From a virus, in IMG/VR virus record IMGVR_UViG_3300025314_000087, positions 1 through 26,938 of that record: DNA of 26,938 bases, one strand, 5' to 3'. A model generated the notes under the pieces. That model saw only the letters and a program-made list of their open reading frames with translations, searched no databases and was not told where the DNA came from. Shown one piece after another: positions 6,862-22,424 of this stretch. The first letter of the stretch is position 1. Each line of letters opens with the position of its first letter. The position numbers and the translations under genes are program-made.

Positions 6862-6863
6862 CC

Positions 6864-7477: not shown

Positions 7478-7750
7478 ATGGCTAAAGCAAAAGTGCAGGA
7501 TTTGCAGTGGGAGTTGATGCGCTCAATGGCCCCCGCGACCCGGGTTCGGGCCGTATCCGGCGAGGGTGATATCATCGCCCCGAATGGCGCAACGCTGTAC
7601 GTCGGAACGAAAGGGAGCGTTGAATTCCGACCTTACAAAGGCTCCGAATTCGTGACCGTTCCGAACTTGGAAGGGTTCGTGCCGATTCGCGCATACGCGG
7701 TACGGCTTGGCAGCGATACGTCGGCGACCGATATCTTTTTCGTATGGTGA
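7478..7750 (+). CDS. Small spike-base-like protein (resembles GTA Rcc01079 family)
   Basis: A 90-aa beta-rich protein. The second half follows the pattern of small phage and gene transfer agent spike-base proteins: ATLYVGTKGSVEFRPYKGSE, VTVPNLEGFVPIRAYAVRLG, and a final ATDIFFVW where the family usually ends in a T-A-T-[DN]-I motif. In the Rhodobacter capsulatus gene transfer agent the base protein anchors a capsid spike. Here the next gene, 4 nt downstream, encodes a carbohydrate-binding-type SPRY domain, which supports a base-plus-spike pair. GGAG at 7467-7470 serves the ATG. Assignment is by eye and by context. Confidence 0.55.
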   Translation: MAKAKVQDLQWELMRSMAPATRVRAVSGEGDIIAPNGATLYVGTKGSVEFRPYKGSEFVTVPNLEGFVPIRAYAVRLGSDTSATDIFFVW

Positions 7751-7754
7751 TCTA

Positions 7755-8510
7755 ATGCGAGGGCGCGGACGTTCGCGGCGACGGACCGATTTAGCGGCGA
7801 TTCGGTTTGCAGCCGAGCCGGCGTCCGACTTCCCGTCGTCCATGCCGTCTTCGGAGCCGGCGTCCGACTTCCCGTCGTCCATGCCGTCTTCGGAGCCGGC
7901 GTCCGACTTCCCGTCGTCCATGCCGTCTTCGGAGCCGGCTCCGTTGGTTCCGGCGATCTGGAATTCCGCCGACAAGTCGGCGTCGATTACATTGACCAAT
8001 GGCGATCTAACGGCGGATTCCGGAGCCTATGGGTTCACCGGAGTCCGGGCGAACCTTAGCAAGACGGCGGGAAAATTCTATTGTGAGTTTTCCGCCAACG
8101 CCATGGACGATAATGACTCCGGCATCGGTGTGGTACTGGCGAGCGCGAGCCTAGGCGGACTGCGCAAAGGCGGCGCGGGTCCAATCGTTTATACAACGGT
8201 CATCTATAGCAACTTCGGTGGCCCCGGATCGGTGTTGACGAACATCGTGGGCAACACTCTTTGCATGGCCGTGGACTTGGACGCGCGGAAGGCATGGTTC
8301 CGCACGAATAACGGAAATTGGAACGGTAGTCCGTCCGACGATCCGGCGACCGGCGCGGGTGGAATCGATTATTCGAGTTACATATCTGCCGGCGCAGCGA
8401 TGATGCCGGGCATGGCGGCGAGTACCCCGAATATTGGGACAACGGCGAACTTCGGGGCGAGCGCCTACAGCTATACCCCGCCATCCGGATACGGGAATTG
8501 GGAAGAGTGA
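7755..8510 (+). CDS. SPRY-domain spike or fibre protein with tandem-repeat linker
   Basis: A 251-aa protein in three parts: a very basic N-terminus (MRGRGRSRRRTDL), a Pro/Ser/Glu linker of three exact 13-residue repeats (EPASDFPSSMPSS), and a 181-residue SPRY-like beta-sandwich from residue 69 to the end. The SPRY part shows KFYCEFSANAMDDNDSGIGV, LCMAVDLDARKAWFRTNNGNW and TANFGASAYSYTPPSGYGNW, typical of phage fibre SPRY domains that bind surface glycans or proteins. A nearly identical domain starts the adhesin at 19986. The ATG at 7755 was chosen over a TTG at 7707 that overlaps the previous gene; there is no clear ribosome binding site, so translation is probably coupled. Position suggests a head- or neck-attached decoration, but a tail location is not excluded. 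Confidence 0.7.
   Translation: MRGRGRSRRRTDLAAIRFAAEPASDFPSSMPSSEPASDFPSSMPSSEPASDFPSSMPSSEPAPLVPAIWNSADKSASITLTNGDLTADSGAYGFTGVRANLSKTAGKFYCEFSANAMDDNDSGIGVVLASASLGGLRKGGAGPIVYTTVIYSNFGGPGSVLTNIVGNTLCMAVDLDARKAWFRTNNGNWNGSPSDDPATGAGGIDYSSYISAGAAMMPGMAASTPNIGTTANFGASAYSYTPPSGYGNWEE
7815..7931 (+). repeat. Three perfect 39-bp tandem repeats in the spike linker
   Basis: Units at 7815-7853, 7854-7892 and 7893-7931 are identical and in frame, each encoding EPASDFPSSMPSS. A fourth partial copy begins at 7932. Exact identity even at silent positions indicates recent expansion or ongoing slippage. Confidence 0.97.
7959..8501 (+). repeat. SPRY-domain duplication, copy 1
   Basis: This 543-bp stretch aligns without gaps to 20001-20543. 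The encoded 181-residue domains differ at 13 positions by my count (about 93% identity), with a central run of about 90 residues unchanged. Confidence 0.95.
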
Positions 8511-8511
8511 C

Positions 8512-8868
8512 ATGGGAATTGATTTTCAATCTCTATTATACGAACCAATTTACACTTTGCAGGGTGTGACCGTATTACTCACACTTGGTAATGGTGCCGA
8601 ATATGATTCGCTTACGGCGTTGGACAAAACGACTGGAGTCGAAGTTGGCGACCATGCGGAAGTTCCGACCATTCAACCGGCCGCCGCGTTTCGAATCAAA
8701 GAGCTAATCGACCGGGGGTTAATCTTGGAAGATTTGCTTGGGGCAACGTTGGAAATGAACGAATGGCTTTGGACGGTTCGGAATTACAAGCTTAAGCCGA
8801 GTCCCAATGGCCAGGACGACGGGGAAGTTTTCTTGATCTTGGATGAACGGCGAAAGGTGACGCCATGA
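8512..8868 (+). CDS. Probable head-tail connector (stopper-like) protein
   Basis: A 118-aa protein I do not recognise with certainty. Size and outline resemble lambda gpFII-type stoppers: N-terminal helix (FQSLLYEPIYTL), a beta strand region (GVTVLLTLGNGAEYDSLTALD), a charged loop, RIKELIDRGLILEDLLGATLEM with the 'define the limits of a value' look of FII/tail-joining folds, and the C-terminal NEWLWTVRNYKL...EVFLILDERRKV. The ATG lies 1 nt after the spike stop. Its own stop overlaps the next start as ATGA. A head-tail joining protein is otherwise missing between portal and tail genes, which supports the call. It could instead be another structural accessory protein. Confidence 0.5.
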   Translation: MGIDFQSLLYEPIYTLQGVTVLLTLGNGAEYDSLTALDKTTGVEVGDHAEVPTIQPAAAFRIKELIDRGLILEDLLGATLEMNEWLWTVRNYKLKPSPNGQDDGEVFLILDERRKVTP

Positions 8869-9215
8869 CTCCCGGTGTTTATGATTTCGATCTTGTTCGC
8901 GGAACGACTTCGCCTTTCGTCTTTCAATTGAAGACGACGGATGACGCAGGCGTTGAAACGAACATGCCTTATGAAGATGTTCGGTTGACCCTGTACGCTA
9001 ACGGGGAATTTTTGTTTCGGAAATCGCTCGCCGACGATACGCTTGAATCTGATTCGGATAACGCCGAAATCATGTGGACGCCGACTGTTGAGGAGTCGCG
9101 TTTAATTCCGCAAGGCCGCAATACCCGTTACGAAGTTGAAGTTCGGTATGCCGGCGGGCAAGAGGTTTATCTTGTCGGCGTGATTACCGGACTCGGAGGG
9201 CTGAATGATGACTGA
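8865..9215 (+). CDS. Small beta-domain virion protein upstream of collagen-like fibre
   Basis: A 116-aa protein of the common phage small-domain type: YDFDLVRGTTSPFVFQLK, DVRLTLYANGEFLFRK, an acidic middle, AEIMWTPTVEESRLIPQG, then RYEVEVRYAGGQEVYLVGVIT. This strand order looks like the immunoglobulin-like or BppU-N-like domains that often sit just upstream of fibre genes and may anchor or fold them. Function is inferred only from that likeness and from the next gene, a collagen-like fibre whose start overlaps it by 8 nt. GGAGGG near its end (9195-9200) serves the fibre gene. Confidence 0.5.
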   Translation: MTPGVYDFDLVRGTTSPFVFQLKTTDDAGVETNMPYEDVRLTLYANGEFLFRKSLADDTLESDSDNAEIMWTPTVEESRLIPQGRNTRYEVEVRYAGGQEVYLVGVITGLGGLNDD

Positions 9216-11109
9216 CGTTGTAGTAAAGGTCATCAAACGAATTGTGAATCCCATTCCGCCAAAACCGACCGGCGTAGTGAAGGTAATTGCACGCGGTCCG
9301 CGTGGGCCAAAAGGTGAAGACGGGGCAACGTTAGTCGGCGAGGGCGCGCATATTTACCAAGGGTCCGGCGTGCCCGATTCCGCTCTTGGGGCGGATAATG
9401 AATGGTACATTGATAGCGATACCGCTGATATGTATCAAAAACAAGACGGGACATGGGAATATATTTTGACGATCTTAGGCCCGCAAGGTCCAGCGGGTCC
9501 GGCAGGCGAAGACGGGCAATTGCTTGTCGGTGAGGGCGCAAATATTCTTACCGGCGATGGGGTGCCAAGTGATTCTATTGGCACGGATGCCGATCTTTAT
9601 CTTGATAATGTCGGGGATGACATTTACAAAAAAGTTTCGGGCCATTGGGAATTCCAAACGAATATCAGAGGATCGGCAGGCCCCGAAGGAATTCAAGGGC
9701 TGCAAGGTAATCCCGGATCGAATGGGACGAATGGATGGACGCCGGTTTTTGCCGTTGTCGTGGACGGCTCGCGTAATGTGTTGCAAGTTGTCGATTGGAC
9801 AGGCGGCAGCGGTACGAAACCGGCGACCGGAAAATATGTCGGGGCAACAGGTCTTGTTATTCTGATTGCCGATGCGGTCAATATTCGCGGTGCGCAAGGC
9901 GCGGCGGGCGCAGCGGGTGCGGACGGCGCGGATGGGGCGGACGGCCCGGCCGGAGCGGACGGGGCCGATGGTGTCGGCAATGCTTGGCGTTCCGGATCGG
10001 GAGCGCCTTCGGATTCGCTTGGCATCAATGGCGATCTATATTTGGACACCGTGACGGACGACGTTTATCAGAAAGCCGCCGGCACCTACGGCATCGTTGC
10101 GAATATTAAAGGTGCGGCCGGCGCGGATGGTGCGGACGGCGCGGACGGTGCCGATGGCATCGGCAATGCGTGGCGTTCCGGATCGGGAGCGCCTTCGGAT
10201 TCGCTTGGCATTAACGGCGATCTATATTTGGACACGGCGACGGACGACGTTTATCAGAAAGCCGCCGGCATCTATAGCGTCATTACGAATATTCACGGGA
10301 CTGCCGGCGCGGATGGTGCGGACGGCGCAGACGGTGCCGATGGCATCGGCAATGCTTGGCGTTCCGGATCGGGAGCGCCTTCGGATTCGGTCGGTATCGA
10401 CGGCGATCTATATTTGGACACCGTGACGGACGACGTTTATCAGAAAGCCGCCGGCACCTACAGCGTCATTACGAACATCAAAGGCAATACAGGCGCAGAC
10501 GGTGCAGACGGCGCGGACGGGGCCGATGGCGTCGGCAATGCTTGGCGGTCCGGGTCGGGAGCGCCTTCCGATTCGCTTGGGATCAACGGCGATCTATATT
10601 TGGACACCGTGACGGACGACGTTTATCAGAAAGCCGCCGGCACCTACAGCATCGTTGCGAACATCAAAGGTTCGAATGGTGCAGCGGGTGCAGACGGCGC
10701 GGACGGCGCGGATGGTGCCCCCGGTTCGGCCGGGACGACTCAAATCGTTGTCGAAATTGATGGGAACGGAAACGTAATCACCACAGGTTTGAAAGGATTT
10801 TTGCCTCTTAAGTTTGCGGGTACGATCACATCGGCAACGCTTGTGGCAGATCGCGCGGGGGCCATCGTTGTCGATATATGGAAATGCACTTATGCGCAAT
10901 TCGACGCGGGCGCGACCCATCCCGTCACGGGTGATAAGATCACGTCCAGCACACCGCCGACAATTACGGCGTCAAATACCAAAGCTCAAGATACAACGCT
11001 TGCTAGTTGGACCACGACTTTCGCGGATGGTGATCTGTATGGGTTCAATGTGAATAGCTGTACTACGATTCAAAAGGCGTGGCTTATTCTTGCGATTACC
11101 CGGAGTTGA
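9208..11109 (+). CDS. Collagen-like fibre protein with 62-residue modules
   Basis: A 633-aa fibre. The N-terminal 30 residues (VVKVIKRIVNPIPPKPTG) look like an attachment segment. Then GPRGPKGEDGA begins a series of Gly-X-Y blocks (GADGADGADGADG, GPAGPAGEDG) alternating with a globular insert of the form WRSGSGAPSDS-G-GDLYLDT-TDDVYQKAAGTY-NIKG. Two diverged and four near-identical modules are visible. The last ~125 residues form a non-collagenous beta domain (GFLPLKFAGTITSATLVAD, IVVDIWKCTYAQF, TIQKAWLILAITRS) likely to be the trimerisation or receptor-binding tip. Collagen-like triple helices are known in phage fibres. Start codon: GGAGGG at 9195-9200 fits ATG 9208 (7 nt) better than ATG 9205. 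The location suggests a head, neck or tail-side fibre; which one cannot be told. Confidence 0.85.
   Translation: MTDVVVKVIKRIVNPIPPKPTGVVKVIARGPRGPKGEDGATLVGEGAHIYQGSGVPDSALGADNEWYIDSDTADMYQKQDGTWEYILTILGPQGPAGPAGEDGQLLVGEGANILTGDGVPSDSIGTDADLYLDNVGDDIYKKVSGHWEFQTNIRGSAGPEGIQGLQGNPGSNGTNGWTPVFAVVVDGSRNVLQVVDWTGGSGTKPATGKYVGATGLVILIADAVNIRGAQGAAGAAGADGADGADGPAGADGADGVGNAWRSGSGAPSDSLGINGDLYLDTVTDDVYQKAAGTYGIVANIKGAAGADGADGADGADGIGNAWRSGSGAPSDSLGINGDLYLDTATDDVYQKAAGIYSVITNIHGTAGADGADGADGADGIGNAWRSGSGAPSDSVGIDGDLYLDTVTDDVYQKAAGTYSVITNIKGNTGADGADGADGADGVGNAWRSGSGAPSDSLGINGDLYLDTVTDDVYQKAAGTYSIVANIKGSNGAAGADGADGADGAPGSAGTTQIVVEIDGNGNVITTGLKGFLPLKFAGTITSATLVADRAGAIVVDIWKCTYAQFDAGATHPVTGDKITSSTPPTITASNTKAQDTTLASWTTTFADGDLYGFNVNSCTTIQKAWLILAITRS
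9976..10719 (+). repeat. Four 186-bp tandem repeats in the collagen-like gene
   Basis: GGCAATGC landmarks occur at 9976, 10162, 10348 and 10534, an exact 186-bp period (62 codons). Copies are very similar in the insert; the collagen part varies mostly at silent sites, and the last copy's collagen segment (GSNGAAGADGAD) differs. Two more degenerate copies precede (about 9340-9700). Confidence 0.95.
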
Positions 11110-11112
11110 TCG

Positions 11113-11769
11113 GTGGCAGTTGCATTTCAAAATGTGAATGGTACAAATTCGTCGGGCACGACCGGCACGACGGCTATGCCAACGGGCATTACAGCGGGTG
11201 ATCTTTTGATTTCGGAATTTTTTCTTCCGCTCGATAAAACTCTTTCGATCAGCGGAACCGGATGGGAAATTATAAATCAAATTAATAGTGCCGGCGGGAA
11301 TTATACGTATGGCATTGCGCGCAAAATTGCGACGGCAAGTAACCCGTCGCCAACGTGGTCTTGGGATGGGACCAATACTCAATTCGCGGCGAATTGCTGG
11401 CGCTTCAATGGCGTGTATGGGAATGCGCCGATTGGTGCAGCGCGGATTGCTTTAGATGGGTCCGGATCAAGTACGGCGGCAGGTTGCGCGGCAGTCAAAG
11501 CTACATCAGCCGCCGCTTATATGGCTTCCTTTTGTTCCGTGAGTACAAATCAAATAGTGCCGACTCCGACAAACTATACAAGTCGGAATGAATTTCATTC
11601 AAGTAATCCGGTTGTGTCATCGCAACGCATGTCGTCCAGGGCACTTACGAATGGGGGCGATGATTCCGGTAGTAGCGTCGTCACAATCACAGCCGCGAAA
11701 TGGGGTGCAAGCTTAATTGAAATTCGTTCGCAAGCGCCGGATAAATGCCGAATTCGAATGGTGTGGTAG
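11113..11769 (+). CDS. Lectin-like beta-sandwich virion protein
   Basis: A 218-aa Gly/Ser/Thr/Asn-rich protein with a strand pattern of phage fibre jelly-roll domains: AGDLLISEFFLPLDKTLSISGTGWEIINQ, YGIARKIATASNPSPTWSWDG, CWRFNGVYG. Such domains are found as receptor-binding or decoration parts of tail fibres and secreted surface proteins. The start is GTG at 11113, 3 nt after the fibre stop, with GGAG at 11102-11105 inside the end of the fibre gene, so translation is probably coupled. It may be a partner or cap of the collagen-like fibre. Specific function is unknown. Confidence 0.5.
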   Translation: MAVAFQNVNGTNSSGTTGTTAMPTGITAGDLLISEFFLPLDKTLSISGTGWEIINQINSAGGNYTYGIARKIATASNPSPTWSWDGTNTQFAANCWRFNGVYGNAPIGAARIALDGSGSSTAAGCAAVKATSAAAYMASFCSVSTNQIVPTPTNYTSRNEFHSSNPVVSSQRMSSRALTNGGDDSGSSVVTITAAKWGASLIEIRSQAPDKCRIRMVW

Positions 11770-11775
11770 GGGATC

Positions 11776-12258
11776 ATGACCGACAAACGCGACCTTATCT
11801 TGGAACGGCTTGCCGCTTTGTTGCAAGAGTGCGTGGACGATTCTAAGAGTTTTTTCAGGAATACGGATACGGTTCCAGAAAAACGTCGCCCGGCGATTTT
11901 GATGGTGGATGCGGACGAAGAGCTTGACCCACGATTTGCGAATCCGCCGGGGAACCGGCTGCCGAATGCGGCGCAGATCATGGCGGCGAAACCGCAAACA
12001 TTCCTATATCTGGACGGAAAACCGGATTTTGTGGATGGCCAATCCACCGACGAAAATGGCGTCGGAAAGAAGCTGAATGCCTTTAGAATCAAGGTACTTC
12101 GGAAGGTCTTGAACGATCAAACCTTAATTGATCTATGCGTACCCGGCGGCATAAAATACGATGGATTCATGACGGGTCTAGCGTCGGGTCGTTCACTAGA
12201 GGGCGAGGCGCAGTTACATTTGACCTTCGCATACGCGCTCTTCCCGTCGAAACTCTAA
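11776..12258 (+). CDS. Probable tail terminator protein
   Basis: A 160-aa protein directly before the tube protein, the place of lambda gpU-type terminators that cap the finished tail tube. The N-terminal helix RDLILERLAALLQECV followed by KRRPAILMVDADEELD and a later PQTFLYLDG strand match the usual outline of these proteins (helix, then a P-A-I-hydrophobic-x-D-acidic strand). The helix LNAFRIKVLRKVLNDQTLIDL and a final LEGEAQLHLTFAYAL strand complete the fold. A weak AGGGG precedes the ATG. A neck or tail completion role would be the alternative. Confidence 0.6.
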   Translation: MTDKRDLILERLAALLQECVDDSKSFFRNTDTVPEKRRPAILMVDADEELDPRFANPPGNRLPNAAQIMAAKPQTFLYLDGKPDFVDGQSTDENGVGKKLNAFRIKVLRKVLNDQTLIDLCVPGGIKYDGFMTGLASGRSLEGEAQLHLTFAYALFPSKL

Positions 12259-12273
12259 CCGGAGGCTATCCAA

Positions 12274-12801
12274 ATGCCCACCGCCCCGAACATTGAAAAC
12301 TATTATATCGGCAAAGGCAAAGTGTCGTTCAAGAAGACGGGCGAGTCCGAATATCGCGACCTTGGCAACGTCACGACTTTCGAGCTTACGCCGAATCTGA
12401 CGACGCTCCCACATTTTTCGTCACGCGAAGGCGTTAAGACGAAAGACCGAACCGTTGTGACGGAAAAATCGTTGACCGTCCGGCTTGTCACCGATGAATG
12501 GGACGTGGAAAATCTGCGGCTCGCGCTCTTGGGCGGCGAAACGGAAGTGGATTCCAACGGCCGCACCACGTTTGAAATTTTCAAATCCAACGCGGTGTCC
12601 GGTGCGCTTCGCTTCGAAGGTACGAACGAAGTGGGTCCGCGTTACCAATACGATCTGAATAAAGTGGACTTCGTTCCGCAAAATGCGGTCAATCCACTGT
12701 CCGAAGAGTGGGGCACTTTGGAATTGCAGGGCGAGGCGGCGAAAGACGCCGGATCGTTCGGCACCGTTACGCTCTTGGGCGAGGAAGCTTCGTCCACGTA
12801 A
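12274..12801 (+). CDS. Major tail tube protein
   Basis: A 175-aa protein forming the stacked hexamer rings of the tail. Evidence: N-terminal YYIGKGKVSFKKTGESEYRD LGNV type opening, a TTFELTPNLTTLPHFSSREGVKTKD region that matches tube proteins of siphoviruses (a value-plus-comparison loop), TEKSLTVRLVTDEWDVENLRLALLGG, and a C-terminal strand EWGTLELQGEA. A strong GGAGG at 12261-12265 lies 8 nt before the ATG. It sits between the terminator and the assembly chaperones, as expected. Codon use is biased like the capsid genes. Confidence 0.85.
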   Translation: MPTAPNIENYYIGKGKVSFKKTGESEYRDLGNVTTFELTPNLTTLPHFSSREGVKTKDRTVVTEKSLTVRLVTDEWDVENLRLALLGGETEVDSNGRTTFEIFKSNAVSGALRFEGTNEVGPRYQYDLNKVDFVPQNAVNPLSEEWGTLELQGEAAKDAGSFGTVTLLGEEASST

Positions 12802-12839
12802 CCGCTTCGCTGCAACACCATATGACAGGAAGGTACAAG

Positions 12840-13253
12840 ATGGTTGCTTTGACAGATATCGCCCCGTCCACGCGGACAGTTCCCGTGGACGGGAAAGACG
12901 TTTCGGTGTTCGGTGTATCGGCGCAGGGCATCGCGTCTCTTCTAGGTGAATTCCCGCAACTCCAAAAAATATTCGTCGGCGAGCAAGCGCAGCTAACGCC
13001 GATGGGACTTGTGCAGGCGGTGCCGGAGGCGGTGGCTTCCATTATCGCGGCGGGATGCGGACAACCCGGTGATAAAGAGGCGATCAAGGTTGCGGCACGG
13101 CTTGCGCTGCAAGCGCAGCTTGATTTGCTGAATGTCATTATTGATCTGACGATGCCGGCGGGTATCGGCCCTTTCGTGGACGCTCTAAACGCGGTGTTCG
13201 TCAAACTCGGGCTAGGCGACCTTACCAAGGTGCCGGGTACGAAATCGGCGTAG
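12840..13253 (+). CDS. Tail assembly chaperone, lambda gpG-like (pre-tape-measure)
   Basis: A 137-aa mostly helical protein: VFGVSAQGIASLLGEFPQLQKIF, QLTPMGLVQAVPEAVASIIAAGC, then DKEAIKVAARLALQAQLDLLNVIIDLTM and VDALNAVFVKLGLG. This is the outline of the first of the two pre-tape-measure chaperones that coat the tape measure during assembly. AGGAAGG at 12827-12833 lies 6 nt before the ATG. The second chaperone frame starts right at its end in the -1 frame, as in lambda G/GT. Function inferred from position, size and composition. Confidence 0.75.
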   Translation: MVALTDIAPSTRTVPVDGKDVSVFGVSAQGIASLLGEFPQLQKIFVGEQAQLTPMGLVQAVPEAVASIIAAGCGQPGDKEAIKVAARLALQAQLDLLNVIIDLTMPAGIGPFVDALNAVFVKLGLGDLTKVPGTKSA

Positions 13254-13264
13254 CCATTGAAGCC

Positions 13265-13453
13265 TTGATTGCCGAAGGGCATCGGCCGTCAGACGTTTGG
13301 AGCTACACACCGCGCCAGATCAAGGCGTTCCAATTCCTTGCCATCCTTCGGCAGCGGAAGCGGGACGCCAAACAATTGACTCTTCAAACGCTCGCCGCGC
13401 GTGGCAATATGCGGGAGTTGGATAAAGAGTTTAAGAGGTTGACGCGGGAATGA
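13265..13453 (+). CDS. Tail assembly chaperone, T-like frame (likely made by frameshift)
   Basis: A 62-codon frame with only a TTG start and no convincing ribosome binding site. It stays open upstream past 13200, and reading it from 13238 gives YEIGVAIEALIAEGHRPSDVWSY, which looks like real protein and joins naturally to the G-like frame ending VPG. RPSDVWSYTPRQIKAF and the following basic helices resemble short tail-assembly chaperones. Relative to the G-like gene this is a -1 frame, as in lambda GT. I find no X-XXY-YYZ heptamer in the overlap, so either the slip site is unusual (candidate G-GGT at 13235-13238) or it is translated separately. The stop overlaps the next gene as ATGA. Confidence 0.65.
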   Translation: MIAEGHRPSDVWSYTPRQIKAFQFLAILRQRKRDAKQLTLQTLAARGNMRELDKEFKRLTRE

Positions 13454-14124
13454 GCAAAACCCTAACCATCATCCTGGACGATATTTCCGTCTATATGGAA
13501 CGGGCGATCAATGACATGATCGATCCGGTGGCGAAGGCCGCGACGAAAGCCGTCTATACGGCGGGGCGGAATACCCAAGCGCGCGGACGACATGCCATTG
13601 GAGCGTCCGGGCTTACAACGAAATGGGAAAATGCGTTGCGATTGCGGGTCTATCCGGTCGGAAAGGACTCGGTGAATCCGGCGGCGTTCATTTATCATAA
13701 AATCCCTTTTGCGGGTGTTTTTGAAACCGGCGCGACGATCCACGGGAATCCGCTTTTGTGGCTGCCTTTGGCCACGACGCCGAAGACTGGAATCGGAAAA
13801 GGCCATACAACTCCAAAACTTTTGCAATCAAAAGGCATTCACCTTTTCACCATCAATCGGTCGGGGAAGCCGCCGTTGCTTGCTGCCGATATTCCGGCTT
13901 TCAATCCGCACGCTCGCCGCAAAGAGCGTATGTCTTTGTATAAGGTTCGGGCTGCCTTACTTGGCAAGAAGTCCGCTCAAGGGAAGGCCGTTCGCGCGGT
14001 GCCCCTTTTCATTGGCAAGCCTAGTATCACGATTCCAAAGAAGTTTGATATTGCGGCCATTACTGCGTCGGAGCGCGACCGGCTTGGGCAATATTACGTT
14101 GTGAACTTGAATGCGTTAGGATAG
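13450..14124 (+). CDS. DUF6441-like tail completion/neck protein
   Basis: A 224-aa basic protein. The middle IYHKIPFAGVFETGATIHGNPLLWLPL is the recognisable core of the DUF6441-type family of phage minor structural proteins, and the preceding Arg-rich helix (AGRNTQARGRHAIGASGL) fits as well. The C-terminal half repeats a similar hydrophobic-basic pattern (PLFIGKPSITIPKKFDI). Such proteins are usually encoded next to tail genes; here it lies between the chaperones and the tape measure, overlapping the former by 4 nt. GAGG near 13435 is a weak binding site, so coupling is likely. The molecular role is unknown. Confidence 0.65.
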   Translation: MSKTLTIILDDISVYMERAINDMIDPVAKAATKAVYTAGRNTQARGRHAIGASGLTTKWENALRLRVYPVGKDSVNPAAFIYHKIPFAGVFETGATIHGNPLLWLPLATTPKTGIGKGHTTPKLLQSKGIHLFTINRSGKPPLLAADIPAFNPHARRKERMSLYKVRAALLGKKSAQGKAVRAVPLFIGKPSITIPKKFDIAAITASERDRLGQYYVVNLNALG

Positions 14125-14128
14125 CGCC

Positions 14129-16432
14129 ATGGCCAGCAACAAAACCATAACGCAACGTATTGCCTTCGAAGGCGGCGCGGAAATGAAAGTGCAGCTTTCC
14201 AATATTGGGGAAGCTGGCGCAGTTGCATTCAAAAGGTTGAAAGATGCGGGCGACGCGGCGTCGGGTTTTGGCGCGCGGCTTATTCCTGTTTTGGATTCTA
14301 TCAAACAAAAATTGAAAGACGTTGGCGACGCCGCCGGTCATGCGAAGGAAAAAATTTCTAATATGGCGGAATCGGTTCGGAACGTAGCGAATCGAATTGC
14401 TCTTATCGCGACGGCCGCGATTGCCGGGGCAACAGGGTTTGCAATGCTGGTATTAGGTGCCGGTAATGCCGCCGACGAAGTTGGCAAGGCAGCCGATGCG
14501 GCCGGCATGGGCACAACCAAATTTCAAAATTTGCGCGATGTTCTATCGATTCTTGGGGCTGAAAGCGGCGGGGTGGGACGGCTTATTGACAAAATGAACC
14601 GGACCCTTGGCGAGTCTCAAAAACAAGCTTTGGAGACGGCTAACAAGCAAAGGAATTTGACCGAACAATTCAATCAAGGGAAGATGACCGGCGAAGAGTA
14701 TCTAAAAAAGCAGCAAGAGATTAACCGGGAAGCGCGCGAGCAAGTGAACGTTTTCAACCGCCTTGGCGTATCTGCCGCCACGGCGATGGACGATCCGCAC
14801 GAAGCTCTTTTGCAATTTGCCGATGCGTTGAAAGTTTTGCCGGAAGGGATTGAAAAATCTTCCTTGCGTGCGGAGATTTTTGGAAAAACGAATAGGCAAT
14901 TGGCCCAAGCGTTGAACGAAGGTCGCGATGGGTTGCTTAAATACGAAGCGGAAATGCAACGGATTGCGCCGGCCTTTACAACGCTGGAAATTGCCGTTGG
15001 GCAAAAACTGCACGACGCCTTTGAAAAGCTTACGTTGGCGGCGACTCGTGCCAAGGATCATTTCTTACTTCTATTCGGGCCGGGTCTGACTCAGATCATT
15101 GATGCGTTCACGGAAATGATTGTTGATAATCGGGACAAGCTGATGGCGTTCGGGCAAGAAATGCTCAACACCATGCAGCCGATTCTAAAAGATTTTGTGG
15201 CGTTGCTGCAAAATAAAGAAATTGATCCGGCGGGTTTTATTGCGAAGATTCGGGACGCCGTGGTTAAACTCGGCACCGATGTTAAAGCAGCTTTGGGCAT
15301 CGTGGTTGCCGCGTGGAACGGCTTCGTTGCTATTCTGGATACGGTAGCGCGCGGCATCAATGCAATCTTTGGTACGAATATTTCCGGGCAAGCTCTTGCG
15401 ATTGTCGCGGTGATCGGTGTCTTAAGTGGCGCATTCGCGGCCGTGGCCGCGACGATTTCGGCGGTGATTGCAATCGTCGGTGTCTTGGACGCGGTTTTGG
15501 TGGCTGCGTTTGGGACCGGCGGCGCGCTGATGATCGGCTTGGCGGCGCTTGGGTTCGCCATTGGGTTTATCTTAGGCCAAGTCTTGCCGGAGGCGGCGCA
15601 GAAAGCCGTCGCCGTAATGTCGGAAGCTATTTCCGGCACCGTCCAGAATTTTCAGGAAGTCTTCGCGTTCCTTGGCCGGGCGGCGCAAGCGGCATGGGAC
15701 GGCATTGTTTTGGCGGCCGAAACCGCGTGGAACGCAATCACTGAGTCGGTTACTAGCTTGGCCGGCGGACTAGCGGCAATTTTCGGTGCAGTTTGGGGCG
15801 CGATTACGGAAGGTTTCCGATCCGCCGTGGATGCGGTCAAAGGATTTTTCGAAGACCTTGGCAACACGGCACGCGGAATTTTTGAGGGAATTAGCGGGTT
15901 TATCCAATCGATTATTTCCGCCGCACAATCGGCGGCGTCGGCGCTTGCAGGTATCTTGGGCGGTGGCGGGAGCGGTGACGGTGGGGGCTTTGCGCGGGGT
16001 GGGCAGGTGCAGGCGGCCGGAGGTGGATATATTCGTGGGCCGGGTAGCACTACGTCCGATTCCATTCTTGGATGGTTGTCGGATAAGGAATTCATTATGA
16101 AGGCGCGAGCCGTCCAGCATTACGGGATTTCGTTTATGAACCGCGTCAACAATATGACGTTGCCAAAATCGCTTTTTGAAGGGTTCGCAGGTGGGGGACT
16201 TGTCCGTGCGCTTCAATCGACGCTTGCCATGCCGGCGTTCGCGGCCGGCGGACCCGTCGCGGTGCCGGTGGTTGCGAATGGATCGGCGGGCGGGCGGCCA
16301 TTTGTATTGCAGATCGGGAATGAGCTTTTCGGCGGGATGACGGCCGAAGACGACACGGTTGACCGGCTGCAACGATTTGCGACACGGCGCGGGTTGAGTT
16401 CGGCCGGGCGAAAACCATCATGGGTCGGCTAA
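14129..16432 (+). CDS. Tail tape measure protein
   Basis: A 767-aa, Ala-rich, largely helical protein that sets tail length and is ejected into the cell. It starts with IAFEGGAEMKVQLSNIGEAG, the usual opening of alphaproteobacterial-type tape measures. Hydrophobic segments lie at about residues 78-117 and 421-487 (ALAIVAVIGVLSGAFAAVAA), a candidate inner-membrane channel region. Long amphipathic helices fill residues 150-330. The C-terminus has the typical Gly-rich stretch and FARGGQVQAAGGGYIRGPG, DSILGWLSDKEFIMKARAVQHYG. At about 1.5 angstrom per residue the tail would be about 115 nm. The gene starts 4 nt after the DUF6441-like gene. It ends PSWVG, like the terminase. Confidence 0.92.
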   Translation: MASNKTITQRIAFEGGAEMKVQLSNIGEAGAVAFKRLKDAGDAASGFGARLIPVLDSIKQKLKDVGDAAGHAKEKISNMAESVRNVANRIALIATAAIAGATGFAMLVLGAGNAADEVGKAADAAGMGTTKFQNLRDVLSILGAESGGVGRLIDKMNRTLGESQKQALETANKQRNLTEQFNQGKMTGEEYLKKQQEINREAREQVNVFNRLGVSAATAMDDPHEALLQFADALKVLPEGIEKSSLRAEIFGKTNRQLAQALNEGRDGLLKYEAEMQRIAPAFTTLEIAVGQKLHDAFEKLTLAATRAKDHFLLLFGPGLTQIIDAFTEMIVDNRDKLMAFGQEMLNTMQPILKDFVALLQNKEIDPAGFIAKIRDAVVKLGTDVKAALGIVVAAWNGFVAILDTVARGINAIFGTNISGQALAIVAVIGVLSGAFAAVAATISAVIAIVGVLDAVLVAAFGTGGALMIGLAALGFAIGFILGQVLPEAAQKAVAVMSEAISGTVQNFQEVFAFLGRAAQAAWDGIVLAAETAWNAITESVTSLAGGLAAIFGAVWGAITEGFRSAVDAVKGFFEDLGNTARGIFEGISGFIQSIISAAQSAASALAGILGGGGSGDGGGFARGGQVQAAGGGYIRGPGSTTSDSILGWLSDKEFIMKARAVQHYGISFMNRVNNMTLPKSLFEGFAGGGLVRALQSTLAMPAFAAGGPVAVPVVANGSAGGRPFVLQIGNELFGGMTAEDDTVDRLQRFATRRGLSSAGRKPSWVG

Positions 16433-16433
16433 C

Positions 16434-16868
16434 ATGACTGACACAACGGTTTTAGTTTTGTCTGGAATCGGAGTTCCGCCCTATTCAGCGCGCGGACTTA
16501 CGCAGTCACTTACGCCGTTGGATCAAGCCGCCGATTTGCGGCGGTCCATCAATGGAAAGCTGATTGACCTTTCCGTGGATGAATTCAAAAAATATAAAAG
16601 CACAATCAGCGGAAACGATCAGCAACCGCCGGCCATTGAAGGGATATGGCCGGGCTTGCAGGTCACGGTGGATTGCATTGCGGAGCTTTCCTATTTGACT
16701 GAAAGCAGCGGCAGCGGGTCTGCGTCGCGCGAGATTGTGGCGTCACGCACGGAAGGCGATTTTACTTTTTATCGTCCGCGTCTGGATATGGTGATTATGA
16801 ATTTTTCAATCACAAGAGACGAATACGGCGACGTGGTAAGCTGGACGATGGAATTAGAGGAAGAGTGA
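16434..16868 (+). CDS. Conserved tail-tip protein (distal-tail position)
   Basis: A 144-aa protein between tape measure and hub, the place of the distal tail protein. The sequence SGIGVPPYSARGLTQSLTPL, RRSINGKLIDLSVDEFKKY and GDFTFYRPRLDMVIMNFSITRDEYG looks like a family I have seen only as hypothetical proteins of alphaproteobacterial phages. The mix of strands and the C-terminal acidic end (TMELEEE) would suit a ring-forming baseplate protein. It begins 1 nt after the tape measure stop. The role is inferred from order only. Confidence 0.55.
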   Translation: MTDTTVLVLSGIGVPPYSARGLTQSLTPLDQAADLRRSINGKLIDLSVDEFKKYKSTISGNDQQPPAIEGIWPGLQVTVDCIAELSYLTESSGSGSASREIVASRTEGDFTFYRPRLDMVIMNFSITRDEYGDVVSWTMELEEE

Positions 16869-16871
16869 CGA

Positions 16872-18809
16872 ATGCCCGGCCCTTTTTATTTTGCTTGGGA
16901 AGACGAAGGAATCCCATTCGCGGAAAGCGTTCAAGCTCGCGAAGACGAAACTATTTTTAGCTTTACGGTTGAGCAATCGGAAGGCGATTTTGCCACGTTG
17001 CATATACAGATCATCAATCCGAATATTGGCCTTTTGTCCGCCGGCCGGAAACAATGGGCTTGGCTTTCTTGGTACAATGGTTCGGAAATCATTCCACTCT
17101 TTTATGGAAGACTTGTCGGAATTCCGACCGATATAAATCAGAGAATTGTTTCGTTGGTTTTTGTTGCCCGCCCTTCCGATTTTGTGGCGCAAAAAGGGGC
17201 GCTTGCCGATACATTGAAGGACCGTCCATATTACGATCCGGTTTGGATTGCCGACGATCAAATTGAAAATCCGGATACGGTTTTGGAGGCGCGGGCAGAA
17301 TTGTGGGCAATCGACCGGGTGACGCACGCCGTTACGGCGTCGGATATTTTATTCGGCGAAGATGGTAATGAATCTTTTGTGGAAGACGATGTGCCGCGCG
17401 ATAGTGTCCAGATCAATTTGACCCAAACTCCGCTCCGGGCCGTTTCGGTTGAAGGCAAAGTGACATGGACCCAAACGGCGCAAGGAACGGTGAACTTCGG
17501 GCATTATACTGTTGATACCTATACCGGCAAATCGCTGATTAACGGCTGGCCAAAACCCGGCACATCGCTTCAAAGCGGATGGACGGTCGTGGCGGCGCAG
17601 GCGGTTGATGCTTGGGACGTTGCTAATGTAAAAATGTTTAGTGCAAAATACGATTATCAAAATCCGATGTTGACGCACGAAAACGGCGACGTAATGTCGG
17701 TTTCGTCGTCAAAATCGTGGCCAAATTTACGTAGTCCATATCTTTATTATGATATAATTACCAGTGCCCAAATGGGGACGATGAACGCATTTGCCGATCC
17801 GCCGTATAATATTCCGGCATCAAGCGCGGTTTCCACGTTTTATATTGCACAATCCCGGGTCAACACATCGTTGGTTCTTGGATATGCAGCGGCGCGAGCG
17901 CGAACCGAACGGATCAAATTTACTTTGAAAGCGAATGTTCAAGCTCTTATTACGATGCCGGACGGCGCGGATGCTTTGCAGCTTTCGCTTTCGGGAGCCG
18001 ACGTTGGAAACAAACTTGTGACCGGCGAACTTCCGATAGTCAATAATGCGCGCGGGGCGTATTTCACTACGGATCGGGGCTTGCAAAGTTTGGAATACCT
18101 GATTTCCCTTGCCCGGGCAAATTTGTTGATTCGTTCTCGCGCGGTTGAGATTACTTGGGACTGCAAATTTATACGGGCCATCGCATTGAGCTTGCGCAAG
18201 AATGCGACTCTTGCCGATCATCGGTTGCCGGGTCATTCAGCCGTTGGAAAAATTATTCGATATCGGTTCGGCTTGGATGGGAGTACAGGCAAGACCAATG
18301 GCAGTGTAACTATCGGCTGCGCCATCGGATACGGCGGCGTTGTCGTGGACGTGGAAGGGGAGCCGGATTATTGCGAAACCGATTATGTGGAAGCCGGCTA
18401 TCAAATGACACATGGCGGAACGGTGTCCTTGCCGTCTGCCGATGTGGGATATTCGGAACCGGCCCAACTTCCAAATGACGACGGTTTGAAATTCCCGTTA
18501 TCAAAATGGCAAGTTGTGATTCACGAACAGTGGCATGGTCCAGATAGCCAAGAAGAACTTATTACCCTATCGTTTCTCGCCGCTAAAATTGAGGCAGATT
18601 TGGCGCGGGATACGATGCCGTCGATTGAAACTCAAGGAAAGCTTGCAGCGGCGCAATCGCAAAATACCGAATCTACCTTGAAAAATTATCCGATTTGGTA
18701 TGATCTGCTTTTGAAGCCGGTTAATGGCGGGCCTTTTGAGACGATCTATAATGTGGACGTTTCGCAATTGGAGTTGCCGAAGATGATCGATTTGGAGGCA
18801 GCAACATGA
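16872..18809 (+). CDS. Tail hub / baseplate minor tail protein
   Basis: A 645-aa beta-rich protein without signal peptide or membrane helices. The N-terminal 120 residues (FYFAWEDEGIPF, EDETIFSFTVEQSEGDFA, GLLSAGRKQWAWLSWY, PLFYGRLVGIPTDINQR) and the following DPVWIADDQIENPDTVLEAR, AIDRVTHAVTASDILFGEDG resemble a large tail-tip protein widespread in alphaproteobacterial phages. Its size and place after the distal-tail-like gene suit a hub (gp27/ORF-like) protein that closes the tube. The C-terminal quarter contains PNDDGLKFPLSKWQVVIHEQWHGPDSQEE and a final helix-rich part. An ATGA overlap joins it to the next gene. A receptor-binding function is not supported by the sequence. Confidence 0.6.
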   Translation: MPGPFYFAWEDEGIPFAESVQAREDETIFSFTVEQSEGDFATLHIQIINPNIGLLSAGRKQWAWLSWYNGSEIIPLFYGRLVGIPTDINQRIVSLVFVARPSDFVAQKGALADTLKDRPYYDPVWIADDQIENPDTVLEARAELWAIDRVTHAVTASDILFGEDGNESFVEDDVPRDSVQINLTQTPLRAVSVEGKVTWTQTAQGTVNFGHYTVDTYTGKSLINGWPKPGTSLQSGWTVVAAQAVDAWDVANVKMFSAKYDYQNPMLTHENGDVMSVSSSKSWPNLRSPYLYYDIITSAQMGTMNAFADPPYNIPASSAVSTFYIAQSRVNTSLVLGYAAARARTERIKFTLKANVQALITMPDGADALQLSLSGADVGNKLVTGELPIVNNARGAYFTTDRGLQSLEYLISLARANLLIRSRAVEITWDCKFIRAIALSLRKNATLADHRLPGHSAVGKIIRYRFGLDGSTGKTNGSVTIGCAIGYGGVVVDVEGEPDYCETDYVEAGYQMTHGGTVSLPSADVGYSEPAQLPNDDGLKFPLSKWQVVIHEQWHGPDSQEELITLSFLAAKIEADLARDTMPSIETQGKLAAAQSQNTESTLKNYPIWYDLLLKPVNGGPFETIYNVDVSQLELPKMIDLEAAT

Positions 18810-19165
18810 CAGGATTTGAAAAACTGATTCGACCTTTTCAGGTTCGGCCAATTTCGCCTACATTTTCCGTGCCGCAACCGGGTGCCCCTGTGGCAGAAAA
18901 CGTTGCGGTGGAAGCCGGGCGACCCGGGGAAGGAACGATCTTCCATGGGAATAAAACGTATAGCTCTTCAAGTTATATGGATGCGAAAGGTAGCGAACTG
19001 AGCCGCAAGACCCACGTTAATCGGATTAAGAACAAAGACGATCCGACGCAATATATCGACGTGGAAGTTATCGACAAGCTGACGACCCAAGGGAACACAG
19101 GTCAAAAATACATCAAGACCAACTATGAATTCAAAAATAAATCGGACTCGCCCGATTCGCCGTAG
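18806..19165 (+). CDS. Small hypothetical tail-associated protein
   Basis: A 119-aa polar protein I do not recognise. It opens with a Pro-rich segment (FQVRPISPTFSVPQPGAPVAEN), then a Ser/Tyr run (KTYSSSSYMDAKG) and a charged region (RKTHVNRIKNKDDPTQYIDVEVIDKL), ending in a polar, repetitive tail (KNKSDSPDSP). No membrane segment is visible. It overlaps the hub gene by ATGA and is followed 11 nt later by a fibre gene with its own AGGAG. Small hub-chaperone or hub-attached proteins are common at this place; that is only a positional guess. Confidence 0.5.
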   Translation: MTGFEKLIRPFQVRPISPTFSVPQPGAPVAENVAVEAGRPGEGTIFHGNKTYSSSSYMDAKGSELSRKTHVNRIKNKDDPTQYIDVEVIDKLTTQGNTGQKYIKTNYEFKNKSDSPDSP

Positions 19166-19176
19166 GAGTTACCGCT

Positions 19177-19989
19177 ATGCCGTTGCCATCATCCGGGAAT
19201 ATGTTTCCGATCACTTTGCTTTTCCGCAGTGTGAGTTCGCTTTGGACAAGCTTAGGCCGCAAACTTTTTGCGTCGGAAGTGGACGAAAACTTTTATCAGC
19301 TACAAGAAGCGGTTAATTTCTTGGCCGAAAACCCAACGCTGCCGAAGGAAATTGATTCCATTAGCGTGGTCGGCAGTCAAATGACCATTACTCTTTCGGA
19401 CGGGATAACGACCTTTGGTCCGTTCACCTTGCCCATGGGAGCATTTCGCTGGACAGGCGATTTCCAAGCGGCATTCGACTACAAAACATTTGATCTGTTG
19501 ATGGCGACAAGCGGGATTTATATGGTGTTGCAAGACTTCACATCAGGCAGCACGTTTCAAGCGGGTGCAGCGAATAGCGAAGGGCCGTACTTGCGGTTGC
19601 TGATGCCGACGCCGACGTTATACGATATCGGATTCTTTTTTCCCGGAACGCCGGGAGCCGGAATTGCCGATGGCGAAGCGATGTTCACCTATCGTTTTAC
19701 GCGCGACGTGTATTTCCCGCTGGATTTGATCGACTCGGTGGTCGGACTGGCGACGCCCACGACTGACGATTTGGTTTGTCCGATCTATAAGAATGGTTCG
19801 GAAATCGGATCGTTGACCGTGCCGGCCGGTGGTTATGTCGGCACGTTTGATTTCCCCACCGTTGTCCAATTTACAGACGGGGATCGGATTCGAGTTTTGA
19901 AGCCGGATGCACTGGACGCCACGGCTAGGGATTTAAGTGTAACCTTCGCTGCGTTGAAGGGTGTCTTTGCGGAGGTTGTATCATCGTGA
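19177..19989 (+). CDS. Minor tail / tail-fibre protein
   Basis: A 270-aa protein. The N-terminus carries FASEVDENFYQLQEAV, the EVD-x-NF motif common near the start of phage fibre proteins and thought to be part of the tail-binding helix. Next comes a beta region ending GAFRWTGDFQAAFDYKTFDLL, then GIYMVLQDFTSGSTF like the small carbohydrate-binding modules of fibres, and the last 100 residues (YKNGSEIGSLTVPAGGYVG, VVQFTDGDRIRVLKPDALDAT) have the outline of fibre-tip beta domains. AGGAG at 19164-19168 lies 8 nt before the ATG. The stop overlaps the GTG of the adhesin as GTGA, so the two are coupled and may form one fibre. Confidence 0.65.
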   Translation: MPLPSSGNMFPITLLFRSVSSLWTSLGRKLFASEVDENFYQLQEAVNFLAENPTLPKEIDSISVVGSQMTITLSDGITTFGPFTLPMGAFRWTGDFQAAFDYKTFDLLMATSGIYMVLQDFTSGSTFQAGAANSEGPYLRLLMPTPTLYDIGFFFPGTPGAGIADGEAMFTYRFTRDVYFPLDLIDSVVGLATPTTDDLVCPIYKNGSEIGSLTVPAGGYVGTFDFPTVVQFTDGDRIRVLKPDALDATARDLSVTFAALKGVFAEVVSS

Positions 19990-22424
19990 CGACGGCAGTT
20001 TGGAATTCAGCCGACAAGTCGGCAACGATTACGTTGAGCAACGGTGATCTTACGGCGCAAGCAACCGCCTATGGGTTCACCGGAGTTCGGGCGACGTTGG
20101 CGAAGACGGCGGGAAAATTCTATTGCGAGTTTTCTGCCAACGCTATGGACGACAACGACTCCGGCATCGGTGTGGTACTGGCGAGCGCGAGCCTAGGCGG
20201 ACTTCGCAAAGGTGGCGCGGGGCCAATCGTTTATACAACCGTCATCTATAACAACTTCGGTGGCCCCGGATCGGTACTGACGAACATCGTGGGCAACACG
20301 CTTTGCATGGCCGTGGATTTGGACGCGCGGAAGGCGTGGTTCCGCACGAACAACGGCAATTGGAACGGTAGTCCGTCCGACGATCCGGCGACCGGCGCGG
20401 GTGGAATCGATTATTCGAGCTACATATCGGCTGGCGCGTCAATGATGCCGGGCATGGCGGCCAGTACCCCTACAATGGCGACCACGGGGAATTTTGGGGC
20501 GAGCGCGTACAGCTATACCCCGCCATCGGGATACGGGAATTGGGCGGACGATCCACCGTCGTCTATGCCATCTTCGGAGCCGCCGTCGTCCATGCCGTCG
20601 TCTATGCCATCTTCGGAGCCGCCGTCGTCCACGCCCGATTGCACTTGGAATCCGGTGGACACGTCGGCGGAAATTGATCTGTCGTCCGACCTATTGTCGG
20701 CGCAGGTTAATCCTAGTGAGTTAGGTTATTTTTATTCAAGGGCGACGCGCTCGCACGCGCGAGGAAAATATTATTTTGAATTGAACATTGATGAAATAAA
20801 CCAAGGCAATCAAATTGAACTTTTTGGTGTCGGGCGTGCGAGTATTGACCCGGCAAATTTCACGGCGATCTATAATGGTAATGCCGATTCGTCCGGTTTT
20901 ATTGAAATCGGTTTGCATGGGGGCGGTGGGCATTTTACTATGTCCAATATCACAATCGGCGTTGCTGTTGATTTGAATACCCGCAAAGTTCGTTTCAAAG
21001 TTCGCGCGAATGGGTACACATTTGATTGGATTGGCGGTTCGGGAACGCTTCCAGCGGGCGAGATTTTTCCGACGCTGCTTTTAAGGGGATGGGGATTTAC
21101 CCCGCCGATTCCTCCAATCGTTACCGCGAATTTCGGCGCGAGCGGCTTTGTCTTCGAAATTCCCGGCGACTTCCAATCATGGGACGGTTTGCAAGGTGCA
21201 TCGTCCAGCGCGGCGAATCTTCTTTCCGGTGGGATTGTCATTGCAGCCGGCGCAGTCGGAAGCCATGCGGATCAGTGTGCGATTTCAGCCGACGCGGCAG
21301 CATTCGATTTTGGGGGCACGCTTCCCACATTCGATAACGGGGCGGCAATCGGCTGGAAAGTTTGCCCTGCGCCAGAATTAGGAATCTTCGTTGCATATGC
21401 AAAGGATGCTCCGGACGTAAATCGGCAAATCAGAATTTCCCGGGACTACGGGCAGACATGGGAATCGGTGACTTCCCCCGCGAATAATGCGTGGGAGTCA
21501 ATAACGTGGTGTCGGGGCCTTGGGCTTTTCATAGCGGTGGCATCCACCGGAACGAATCGCGTTATGACTTCGCCGGATGGCGAGAATTGGACGTTGCAAA
21601 CGGCCGCGTCGGCATCGGTATGGAAAGCGGTTGCGTGGTCGGAAGAGCTTGGTTTGGCGGTCGCGGTCGGCACGAACGCAATTATGAAATCCAGCAATGG
21701 CACCACATGGACTACGGTGACGAGTCCAGCGGATAGACAATGGTACGCTATCGCATGGGGTGTCATTCAAGATTCGATTGGGGAAGGGTCGGGATTGTTC
21801 GTTGCCATTGCGAACAATGCAAGCGGATCGAATGACTATATGACTTCCGCAACCGGAAGCACATTTGTTGCCGGTGATTCTGGCAATGCCGGTAGTTTCG
21901 AGGATATTTGTTTTTCTGACGAATTGGAAATCTTTTTGGCCGTGCAAAGTACAGGCAGTGGTTACGCGCTGCGGTTTGATGGGACAACGTGGGCGACAAG
22001 CTCGCCGAGTCCATCGCAAGCATGGGTCGGGTGCGGATGGTCACAAATCGGTCAATGCTTTGTTATCGTGACGACCGATGCAATTGCAACGTCGCCGAAC
22101 GGCGATGCCCCATGGACGGCGTTGACTTCGCCCGGGTCGCGCGGGTGGCGCAGCGTGGCGGAATTGGTGACGTTGCCGGAATCCCCATCGTCACTTTTTG
22201 AATCCTTTTTGGCATCGTCTGCGCCATCTTCGGAGCCGCCGTCGTCCGTGCCATCTTCGCTGCCGTCGTCTGCGCCATCTTCGCTGCCGTCGTCTGCGCC
22301 ATCTTCGCTGCCGTCGTCTGCACCATCTTCGGAGCCGCCGTCGTCCGTGCCATCTTCGGCCCCATCTAGCGCACCCCCTGATTTACCACCGCCGATTCAG
22401 ACGGTAGTTGTTACGCTTTGCTAA
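19986..22424 (+). CDS. Multidomain adhesin: two SPRY-like domains, propeller-like repeats, Pro/Ser linkers
   Basis: An 812-aa probable receptor-binding protein. Residues 6-186 are a SPRY-like domain nearly identical to the one at 7959. A Pro/Ser/Glu linker follows (about 190-215). A second, diverged SPRY-like domain covers about 218-400 (GKYYFELNIDEINQ, IGVAVDLNTRKVRFKVRANG, TANFGASGFVFEIP). About 430-735 are six repeats with Asp-box-like cores: SRDYGQTWES, SPDGENWTLQT, SSNGTTWTTV, ATGSTFVAG, FDGTTWATS, SPNGDAPWTAL, which suggests a beta-propeller. The rest is a long Pro/Ser linker (SAPSSLPSSAPSS) and a short hydrophobic end VVVTLC. Start is GTG at 19986, with GGAGG 10 nt upstream inside the previous gene. 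Enzyme activity (for example sialidase) cannot be claimed; Asp boxes also occur in non-enzymes. Confidence 0.75.
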   Translation: MTTAVWNSADKSATITLSNGDLTAQATAYGFTGVRATLAKTAGKFYCEFSANAMDDNDSGIGVVLASASLGGLRKGGAGPIVYTTVIYNNFGGPGSVLTNIVGNTLCMAVDLDARKAWFRTNNGNWNGSPSDDPATGAGGIDYSSYISAGASMMPGMAASTPTMATTGNFGASAYSYTPPSGYGNWADDPPSSMPSSEPPSSMPSSMPSSEPPSSTPDCTWNPVDTSAEIDLSSDLLSAQVNPSELGYFYSRATRSHARGKYYFELNIDEINQGNQIELFGVGRASIDPANFTAIYNGNADSSGFIEIGLHGGGGHFTMSNITIGVAVDLNTRKVRFKVRANGYTFDWIGGSGTLPAGEIFPTLLLRGWGFTPPIPPIVTANFGASGFVFEIPGDFQSWDGLQGASSSAANLLSGGIVIAAGAVGSHADQCAISADAAAFDFGGTLPTFDNGAAIGWKVCPAPELGIFVAYAKDAPDVNRQIRISRDYGQTWESVTSPANNAWESITWCRGLGLFIAVASTGTNRVMTSPDGENWTLQTAASASVWKAVAWSEELGLAVAVGTNAIMKSSNGTTWTTVTSPADRQWYAIAWGVIQDSIGEGSGLFVAIANNASGSNDYMTSATGSTFVAGDSGNAGSFEDICFSDELEIFLAVQSTGSGYALRFDGTTWATSSPSPSQAWVGCGWSQIGQCFVIVTTDAIATSPNGDAPWTALTSPGSRGWRSVAELVTLPESPSSLFESFLASSAPSSEPPSSVPSSLPSSAPSSLPSSAPSSLPSSAPSSEPPSSVPSSAPSSAPPDLPPPIQTVVVTLC
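20001..20543 (+). repeat. SPRY-domain duplication, copy 2
   Basis: Ungapped match to 7959-8501, offset 12,042 bp. The flanks differ: here the domain is N-terminal and followed by a Pro/Ser linker, there it is C-terminal and preceded by one. Confidence 0.95.
22205..22375 (+). repeat. Low-complexity Pro/Ser repeat tract in the adhesin
   Basis: Imperfect tandem 12-bp and 24-bp units such as CCATCTTCGCTGCCGTCG encode runs of APSSLPSS/EPPSSVPSS. A shorter tract of the same type is at about 20551-20640, and the linker at 7815-7931 has related sequence. These tracts can vary in length by slippage. Confidence 0.9.

Follow-up and report, generated by a model that had tools for sequence, protein, structure and literature searches.

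One SPRY domain in two proteins of a siphophage: a near-identical pair in a candidate head-spike fibre and a probable tail adhesin

Why would a phage encode nearly the same domain in two proteins whose genes lie about 12 kb apart? The question is raised by a siphophage sequence of 26,938 nucleotides, IMG/VR record IMGVR_UViG_3300025314_000087, which we analysed over its whole length (the window). One copy of the domain, which has a predicted SPRY fold, ends protein A, a candidate head-spike fibre, and the other opens adhesin B, which is encoded at a likely tail-fibre location (SPRY A and SPRY B, respectively; Table 1). Our preferred reading, to which we assign a probability of roughly 0.55, is that the phage displays one SPRY binding domain on both a head-spike fibre and a tail adhesin, that the two copies recognize the same host ligand, and that they stem from an old duplication and have been held alike by purifying selection.

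The two copies align without a gap over 183 codons at a constant offset of 12042 nucleotides. Differences were found at 61 of 549 nucleotides (88.9% identity), spread over 50 codons, and at 15 of 183 amino acids (92% identity). An earlier note on this DNA, made from the letters alone, had described a near-identical domain in two proteins with approximately 13 differences over 181 residues; direct alignment confirmed the domain and reproduced that count exactly, adding two last residues that differ as well (EE in A, AD in B). Because BLASTP comparison of protein A with adhesin B gave E = 4e-117, likeness by chance is excluded. The longest identical DNA stretches measured 62 and 47 nucleotides, and at both domain edges identity dropped to background (3–8 of 20). 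Locus A is not an assembly artefact, given its presence in two further IMG/VR contigs of the same phage (L004 and L005), which matched the window over 9,936 and 15,920 bases with 2 mismatches; copy B was covered by the window contig only. The second SPRY-like domain of the adhesin, SPRY C, was highly diverged (28% identical to A), as the earlier note had it.

The fold was assigned from models and profiles. In the AlphaFold2 model of protein A only the SPRY part was ordered (mostly pLDDT 80–94), and Foldseek matched this model to the SPRY domains of Ash2L (E = 1.1e-9), DDX1 and RanBP9/10 (range, E 1e-9 to 1e-8). In a library of viral models the top match was gp46 of Burkholderia phage vB_BceS_AH2 (E 1.4e-14), followed by proteins named B30.2/SPRY. 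A ten-row profile of the phage family matched the RanBP10 SPRY domain at E = 1.5e-6, with RyR, TRIM9 and SPRY7 below 1e-4. The Pfam model PF00622 (curated cut-off, 26.3 bits) gave no match to protein A, protein B or copy B alone, and scored SPRY C at 14.7 bits, AH2 at 25.6 bits and LC76P1 at 53.5 bits. On predicted fold and profile, rather than on the Pfam model, A and B are a divergent phage branch of SPRY domains; the identity proposed in the earlier note is borne out by the Ash2L and RanBP10 matches.

How old is the pair, and what keeps it alike? The earlier note had read it as a recent copy or as ongoing gene conversion, a view consistent with 92% amino acid identity across the whole domain, with the two long identical DNA stretches and with the fact that the other domains of both genes share only linkers. 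The count of silent against replacement changes between the aligned segments, which had been set as a check beforehand, gave 35 and 15, respectively, corresponding to a silent divergence (dS) of 0.39 and a replacement divergence (dN) of 0.051 (Nei–Gojobori; dN/dS 0.13). Silent changes affected 35 of 159 comparable codons, approximately 35% of the way to codon saturation (random codon choice), and were scattered along the domain (longest run, p = 0.22; runs, p = 0.83; core versus flank, p = 0.22), so that no conversion tract was seen. As a yardstick, the repeat units of a collagen-like fibre gene in the same window (9205–11109) differ from each other by dS 0.28–0.48; because 0.39 is not below this range, the two SPRY copies are at least as old as these repeats. 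Recent conversion was rejected on the value of dS and the even spread of silent changes, and we regard recent copying or ongoing conversion as quite improbable, whereas conversion long ago may have occurred.

Replacements were concentrated at the two ends of the domain: 13 of the 15 lay outside codons 38–155 (p = 3e-5), and the 118 codons of this core held 2 replacement and 21 silent changes. Given this ratio and the overall dN/dS, both copies look expressed and constrained. By these measures, the core is under purifying selection rather than diversification, which argues against the earlier suggestion that the phage copies and tests receptor specificities. Near-identity of the proteins is owed, on this pattern of substitution, to selection and not to recency, and the pair is either an older duplication or two related imports, both copies having been held alike as protein. 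A frozen core with changed termini would be expected if the core carries a shared function.

Evidence for a head location of protein A comes from its neighbourhood and its first residues. The gene begins 4 nucleotides past the stop codon of a short gene whose product ends VPIRAYAVRLGSDTSATDIFFVW. Searched against all PHROGs, this product matched phrog_12296 weakly (E 0.019, 15.8 bits; residues 39–86 to 36–82 of 86); nothing else in the window matched that family (E 4.9e-4 for this product), and with profiles made from six or seven phage sequences of the spike-base family it ranked first of 394 stop-to-stop open reading frames (E 4e-4 to 9e-4; next, 0.009 to 0.045). Full members of phrog_12296 include RcapMu57 and RcapNL_00029, the former of which matches the solved head-spike base of RcGTA (Rcc01079; 6tb9) at E 1.2e-5. 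The family is labelled 'tail fiber protein' and appears to be the RcGTA head-spike base family (L054, L055, L056, L049, L050); in many phage annotations the label is probably misleading. The candidate base is 90 residues long and directly precedes the fibre gene; in relatives in which a glycine-alternating fibre follows the base, the base has 82–89 residues.

Binding of such an N-terminal fibre peptide to the base pentamer has been observed in RcGTA (PMC7296036). In four of seven phages, a glycine-alternating peptide opens the product of the gene that follows the base (MGLGLGIGLGL in RcapNL, MYIGLGISL in immuto, MIGLGLDLSL in P8625 and MLIGLGIGIGF in Pben1), RcapMu being intermediate. In immuto the base–fibre pair lies directly 3′ of the major capsid gene, and the spike fibre of P8625 bears a Laminin_G_3 concanavalin-type lectin (E 7e-20) of the same broad fold class as SPRY. 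Because the base-like gene lies directly upstream and protein A starts with a peptide (MRGRGRSR) that alternates with glycine, albeit with arginine where these relatives have leucine or isoleucine, we take A to be a head-spike fibre, which seems quite probable from the weak base match, gene order and peptide pattern combined. The proposal in the earlier note that the domain occupies two virion sites is thereby supported and sharpened, though by inference. A frameshift from the base-like gene into A was dropped, as the first gene ends with an apparent family C-terminal motif. The identification of 8509–9215 as homologues of the Cy-LDV1 head–tail joining gene and the gene after it was unsupported by BLASTP, and this neighbourhood was not used to place A. 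In Rhodobacter phage RcMcLean (Casjensviridae; L058) a spike-base-like gene (2501–2794) lies among early-type genes (helix-turn-helix, DprA-like) and not beside a fibre.

Protein A might instead be a non-virion protein that serves, whether expressed or silent, as a spare cassette for the domain of the adhesin; it is short, lacks a large N-terminal anchor domain and carries the same domain as the adhesin. We consider this very unlikely in view of the strong purifying selection between the copies, the lack of any sign of conversion, the 4-nucleotide spacing from the base-like gene and the fibre-type N-terminal peptide.

Adhesin B starts with a GTG codon that overlaps the stop of a tail-fibre-like gene, and is followed by an endolysin-like gene with a peptidoglycan-binding domain. 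The same order is found for AH2 gp46, an annotated SPRY tail fibre encoded just before the lysis genes, and B is likely, from its gene context, to be at a tail-fibre location. Because a SPRY tail fibre occupies the place of B in this relative, the tail copy was probably the source of the duplication; B is likely the ancestral location and A the derived one. The repeats that follow SPRY C gave no significant database match (Ycf48 only at E 0.6).

An alternative origin is the separate import of the two copies from two related phages, with divergence predating their meeting. Such a history bears on origin alone and could hold together with the functional explanation that we prefer. Phage fibre domains move horizontally, dS 0.39 could equal the divergence of donors, and homology ends at the domain edges; the searches for relatives nevertheless make such import somewhat unlikely. 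In IMG/VR, GenBank phages and GTDB genomes, no SPRY domain above approximately 40% identity to either copy was found, and neither copy was found in any relative besides the same phage. IMG/VR scans with SPRY A, the capsid protein, the tail protein at 16872–18809 and a three-row SPRY alignment returned only the same phage or SPRY domains below 40%, short stretches aside, and no SPRY relative of A or B was found in GTDB genomes. Moreover, both copies adjoin related PSSMPSSEP linkers: the linker between SPRY B and SPRY C matches that before SPRY A by blastn (84–85% over about 70 nucleotides), and elsewhere in IMG/VR the pattern occurred only in three unrelated-looking, arginine-rich and seemingly non-coding frames.

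Table 1 Features of the protein A and adhesin B loci
Feature	Position	Strand	Basis
90-residue protein, candidate head-spike base (RcGTA Rcc01079 / phrog_12296 family)	7478..7750	+	weak profile match, length, C-terminal motif, place before fibre gene
Protein A, 251 residues, candidate head-spike fibre: N-terminal peptide, 39-nucleotide repeat linker, SPRY A	7755..8510	+	open reading frame
N-terminal peptide MRGRGRSRRRT, candidate anchor to base pentamer	7755..7787	+	comparison with first residues of relatives
Linker of 39-nucleotide tandem repeats (SDFPSSMPSSEPA)	7815..7943	+	repeat search, family D2
SPRY copy A	7959..8507	+	183 codons aligned to copy B; SPRY fold
Tail-fibre-like gene upstream of adhesin	19177..19989	+	phrog_7049 tail fiber protein, E 7.9e-9
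Adhesin B, 812 residues: SPRY B, linker, SPRY C, repeats, Ser/Pro tail	19986..22424	+	open reading frame; phrog_10080, E 1.3e-27, two stretches
SPRY copy B	20001..20549	+	92% identical to copy A
PSSMPSSEP linker between SPRY B and SPRY C	20550..20630	+	repeat family D2; DNA-related to linker before SPRY A
SPRY C, diverged third copy	20646..21185	+	28% identical to A; 144 bits to SPRY profile (profile contains SPRY C)
AW..I.W....G.F.AV....S.DG..W repeats, five to seven, beta-propeller-like	21186..22181	+	read from translation
C-terminal Ser/Pro linker repeats	22187..22369	+	repeat family D2

The main rival concerns function. The SPRY domain could be a docking module for a protein of the phage itself, with A and B attaching to or recruiting the same virion partner and receptor binding left to the C-terminal repeats of B and the collagen fibre. 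Outside this phage, peptides are the main ligands of SPRY domains, and SPSB entries were among the Foldseek matches of A. In the adhesin, SPRY B opens at residue 6, the domain is also N-terminal in AH2 gp46 and LC76P1, and the nearly frozen core is as expected for an invariant internal partner; the N-terminal placement of SPRY B, together with this core, leaves room for the rival. It accords less well with the C-terminal position of SPRY A at the free end of a flexible linker, with the mid-protein SPRY domains in fibres of MMDA13, L016 and L019 (tandem in two of these), and with the other concanavalin-type lectin on the P8625 spike fibre. Overall, we judge docking on a phage protein to be unlikely.

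Several further points weigh against display of one receptor-binding domain on head and tail. The match of the candidate base is weak, spanning only 47 residues, and in two of the seven base relatives (DSS3P8 and RcMcLean) the next gene lacks an alternating peptide. The start of A (MRGRGRSRRR) alternates like MGLGLGIG with arginine in place of leucine or isoleucine, and because of this replacement the known contact with a hydrophobic pocket cannot be the same in A. SPRY B sits at the extreme N terminus, where many fibres have their attachment domain. Diversification is common in receptor-binding domains, but the core of SPRY A and SPRY B hardly changes.

Display of one binding domain at both sites would work as follows. 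The base protein would sit on the capsid vertices and hold the MRGRGRSR peptide of A, and the flexible Ser/Pro linker would carry SPRY A outward, while adhesin B would bring SPRY B, the diverged SPRY C and the repeat domain at the tail. With one host surface ligand bound by both SPRY A and SPRY B, the head spike may provide multivalent, early and orientation-independent capture, after which the tail adhesin would take over on the same ligand and align the particle. The pair would go back to an old duplication event, with the tail copy as its probable source, followed by purifying selection on the binding core.

Binding modules at several virion sites are already known. In RcGTA of Rhodobacter capsulatus (base Rcc01079/GhsA, fibre Rcc01080/GhsB, tail fibre Rcc00171), a small base gene likewise lies directly before a gene for a fibre that starts with an alternating peptide and has a flexible body. 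The RcGTA head fibres, or spikes, attach the particle to the capsule (PMC7296036) and the tail fibre binds the capsule too (PMC10218006), head and tail binders there acting on the same surface layer. Unlike the phage described here, with its weak base match, arginine-bearing peptide and 92%-identical SPRY domain in both proteins, RcGTA has head-spike and tail fibres that 'do not share detectable homology' (PMC10218006). Lactococcal 936 siphophages carry carbohydrate-binding modules at several levels (neck passage structure, major tail protein and evolved Dit), of which one neck and one tail module have been shown to bind host cells; their hosts, however, are Gram-positive, the folds are others (BppA-type among them), the decorations are rarely found side by side, and the sections consulted do not describe near-identical copies in a single phage (PMC6669499). 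In T5-like phages such as DT57C, accessory domains of one class occur both on capsid decoration proteins and on tail tube proteins, although the domains are Ig-like rather than SPRY and it is the fold class that is shared, near-identical sequence not being described (PMC10713586).

Among SPRY-bearing phages, AH2 gp46 is the closest named protein (36% identity), with the domain in its N-terminal part and the same place between tail-tip and lysis genes as adhesin B; however, AH2 has a single SPRY domain in its genome and no match to the spike-base family. Multi-SPRY phages have two or three domains in one gene (L016, L017, L019 and RHph_TM16) or two genes (Acidovorax phage ACP17), and pairs within other phage genomes were only 23–36% identical. 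The two ACP17 genes are distant (32.8 and 117 kb), as here, but their copies are approximately 24% identical, giving no sign of a shared ligand. In five other base–fibre phages the spike fibre shared no domain with other proteins of the genome at the thresholds used. The new element, judged from gene sequences, would be the near-identical domain on a candidate head spike and a tail adhesin.

The window represents the structural half of the genome and encodes a GpA-type terminase, lambda-type portal, E-type major capsid protein, tail tube, tape measure, tail-tip proteins and the endolysin-like protein. The same phage is represented by two further contigs in IMG/VR, one of which adds about 28 kb with replication genes (Enc34-type single-stranded DNA-binding protein, DUF2800, DNA polymerase A, SNF2-type helicase and primase-polymerase). 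Directly after the major capsid gene, 6178–6861 matches phrog_4603, annotated as alpha-2,3-sialyltransferase (E 1e-31). Between capsid and spike genes, 6858–7415 encodes an SPFH/Band_7 (stomatin-like) protein (Pfam, E 5e-17) that is unexpected in a phage structural cluster. The collagen-like fibre protein has four repeat units of 186 nucleotides, 72–88% identical, and 25079–26791 encodes a 570-residue protein that fits no family and weakly matches a helix-turn-helix at its N terminus.

Taken furthest, and only tentatively, the pair would be the same receptor-binding domain on capsid-vertex spikes and tail adhesin, kept alike by an unchanged shared ligand and serving two-stage capture, with an arginine-bearing counterpart of the RcGTA star peptide anchoring the spike. 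A near-identical domain on head spike and tail adhesin would, if true, make it testable whether phage head fibres only decorate the particle or take part in a staged adsorption. The locus also suggests a route to head spikes from sequence only: a short base gene followed by a fibre with glycine-alternating first residues is a pattern that could easily be scanned for in metagenomic phages, in which base proteins are currently labelled tail fibre or hypothetical.

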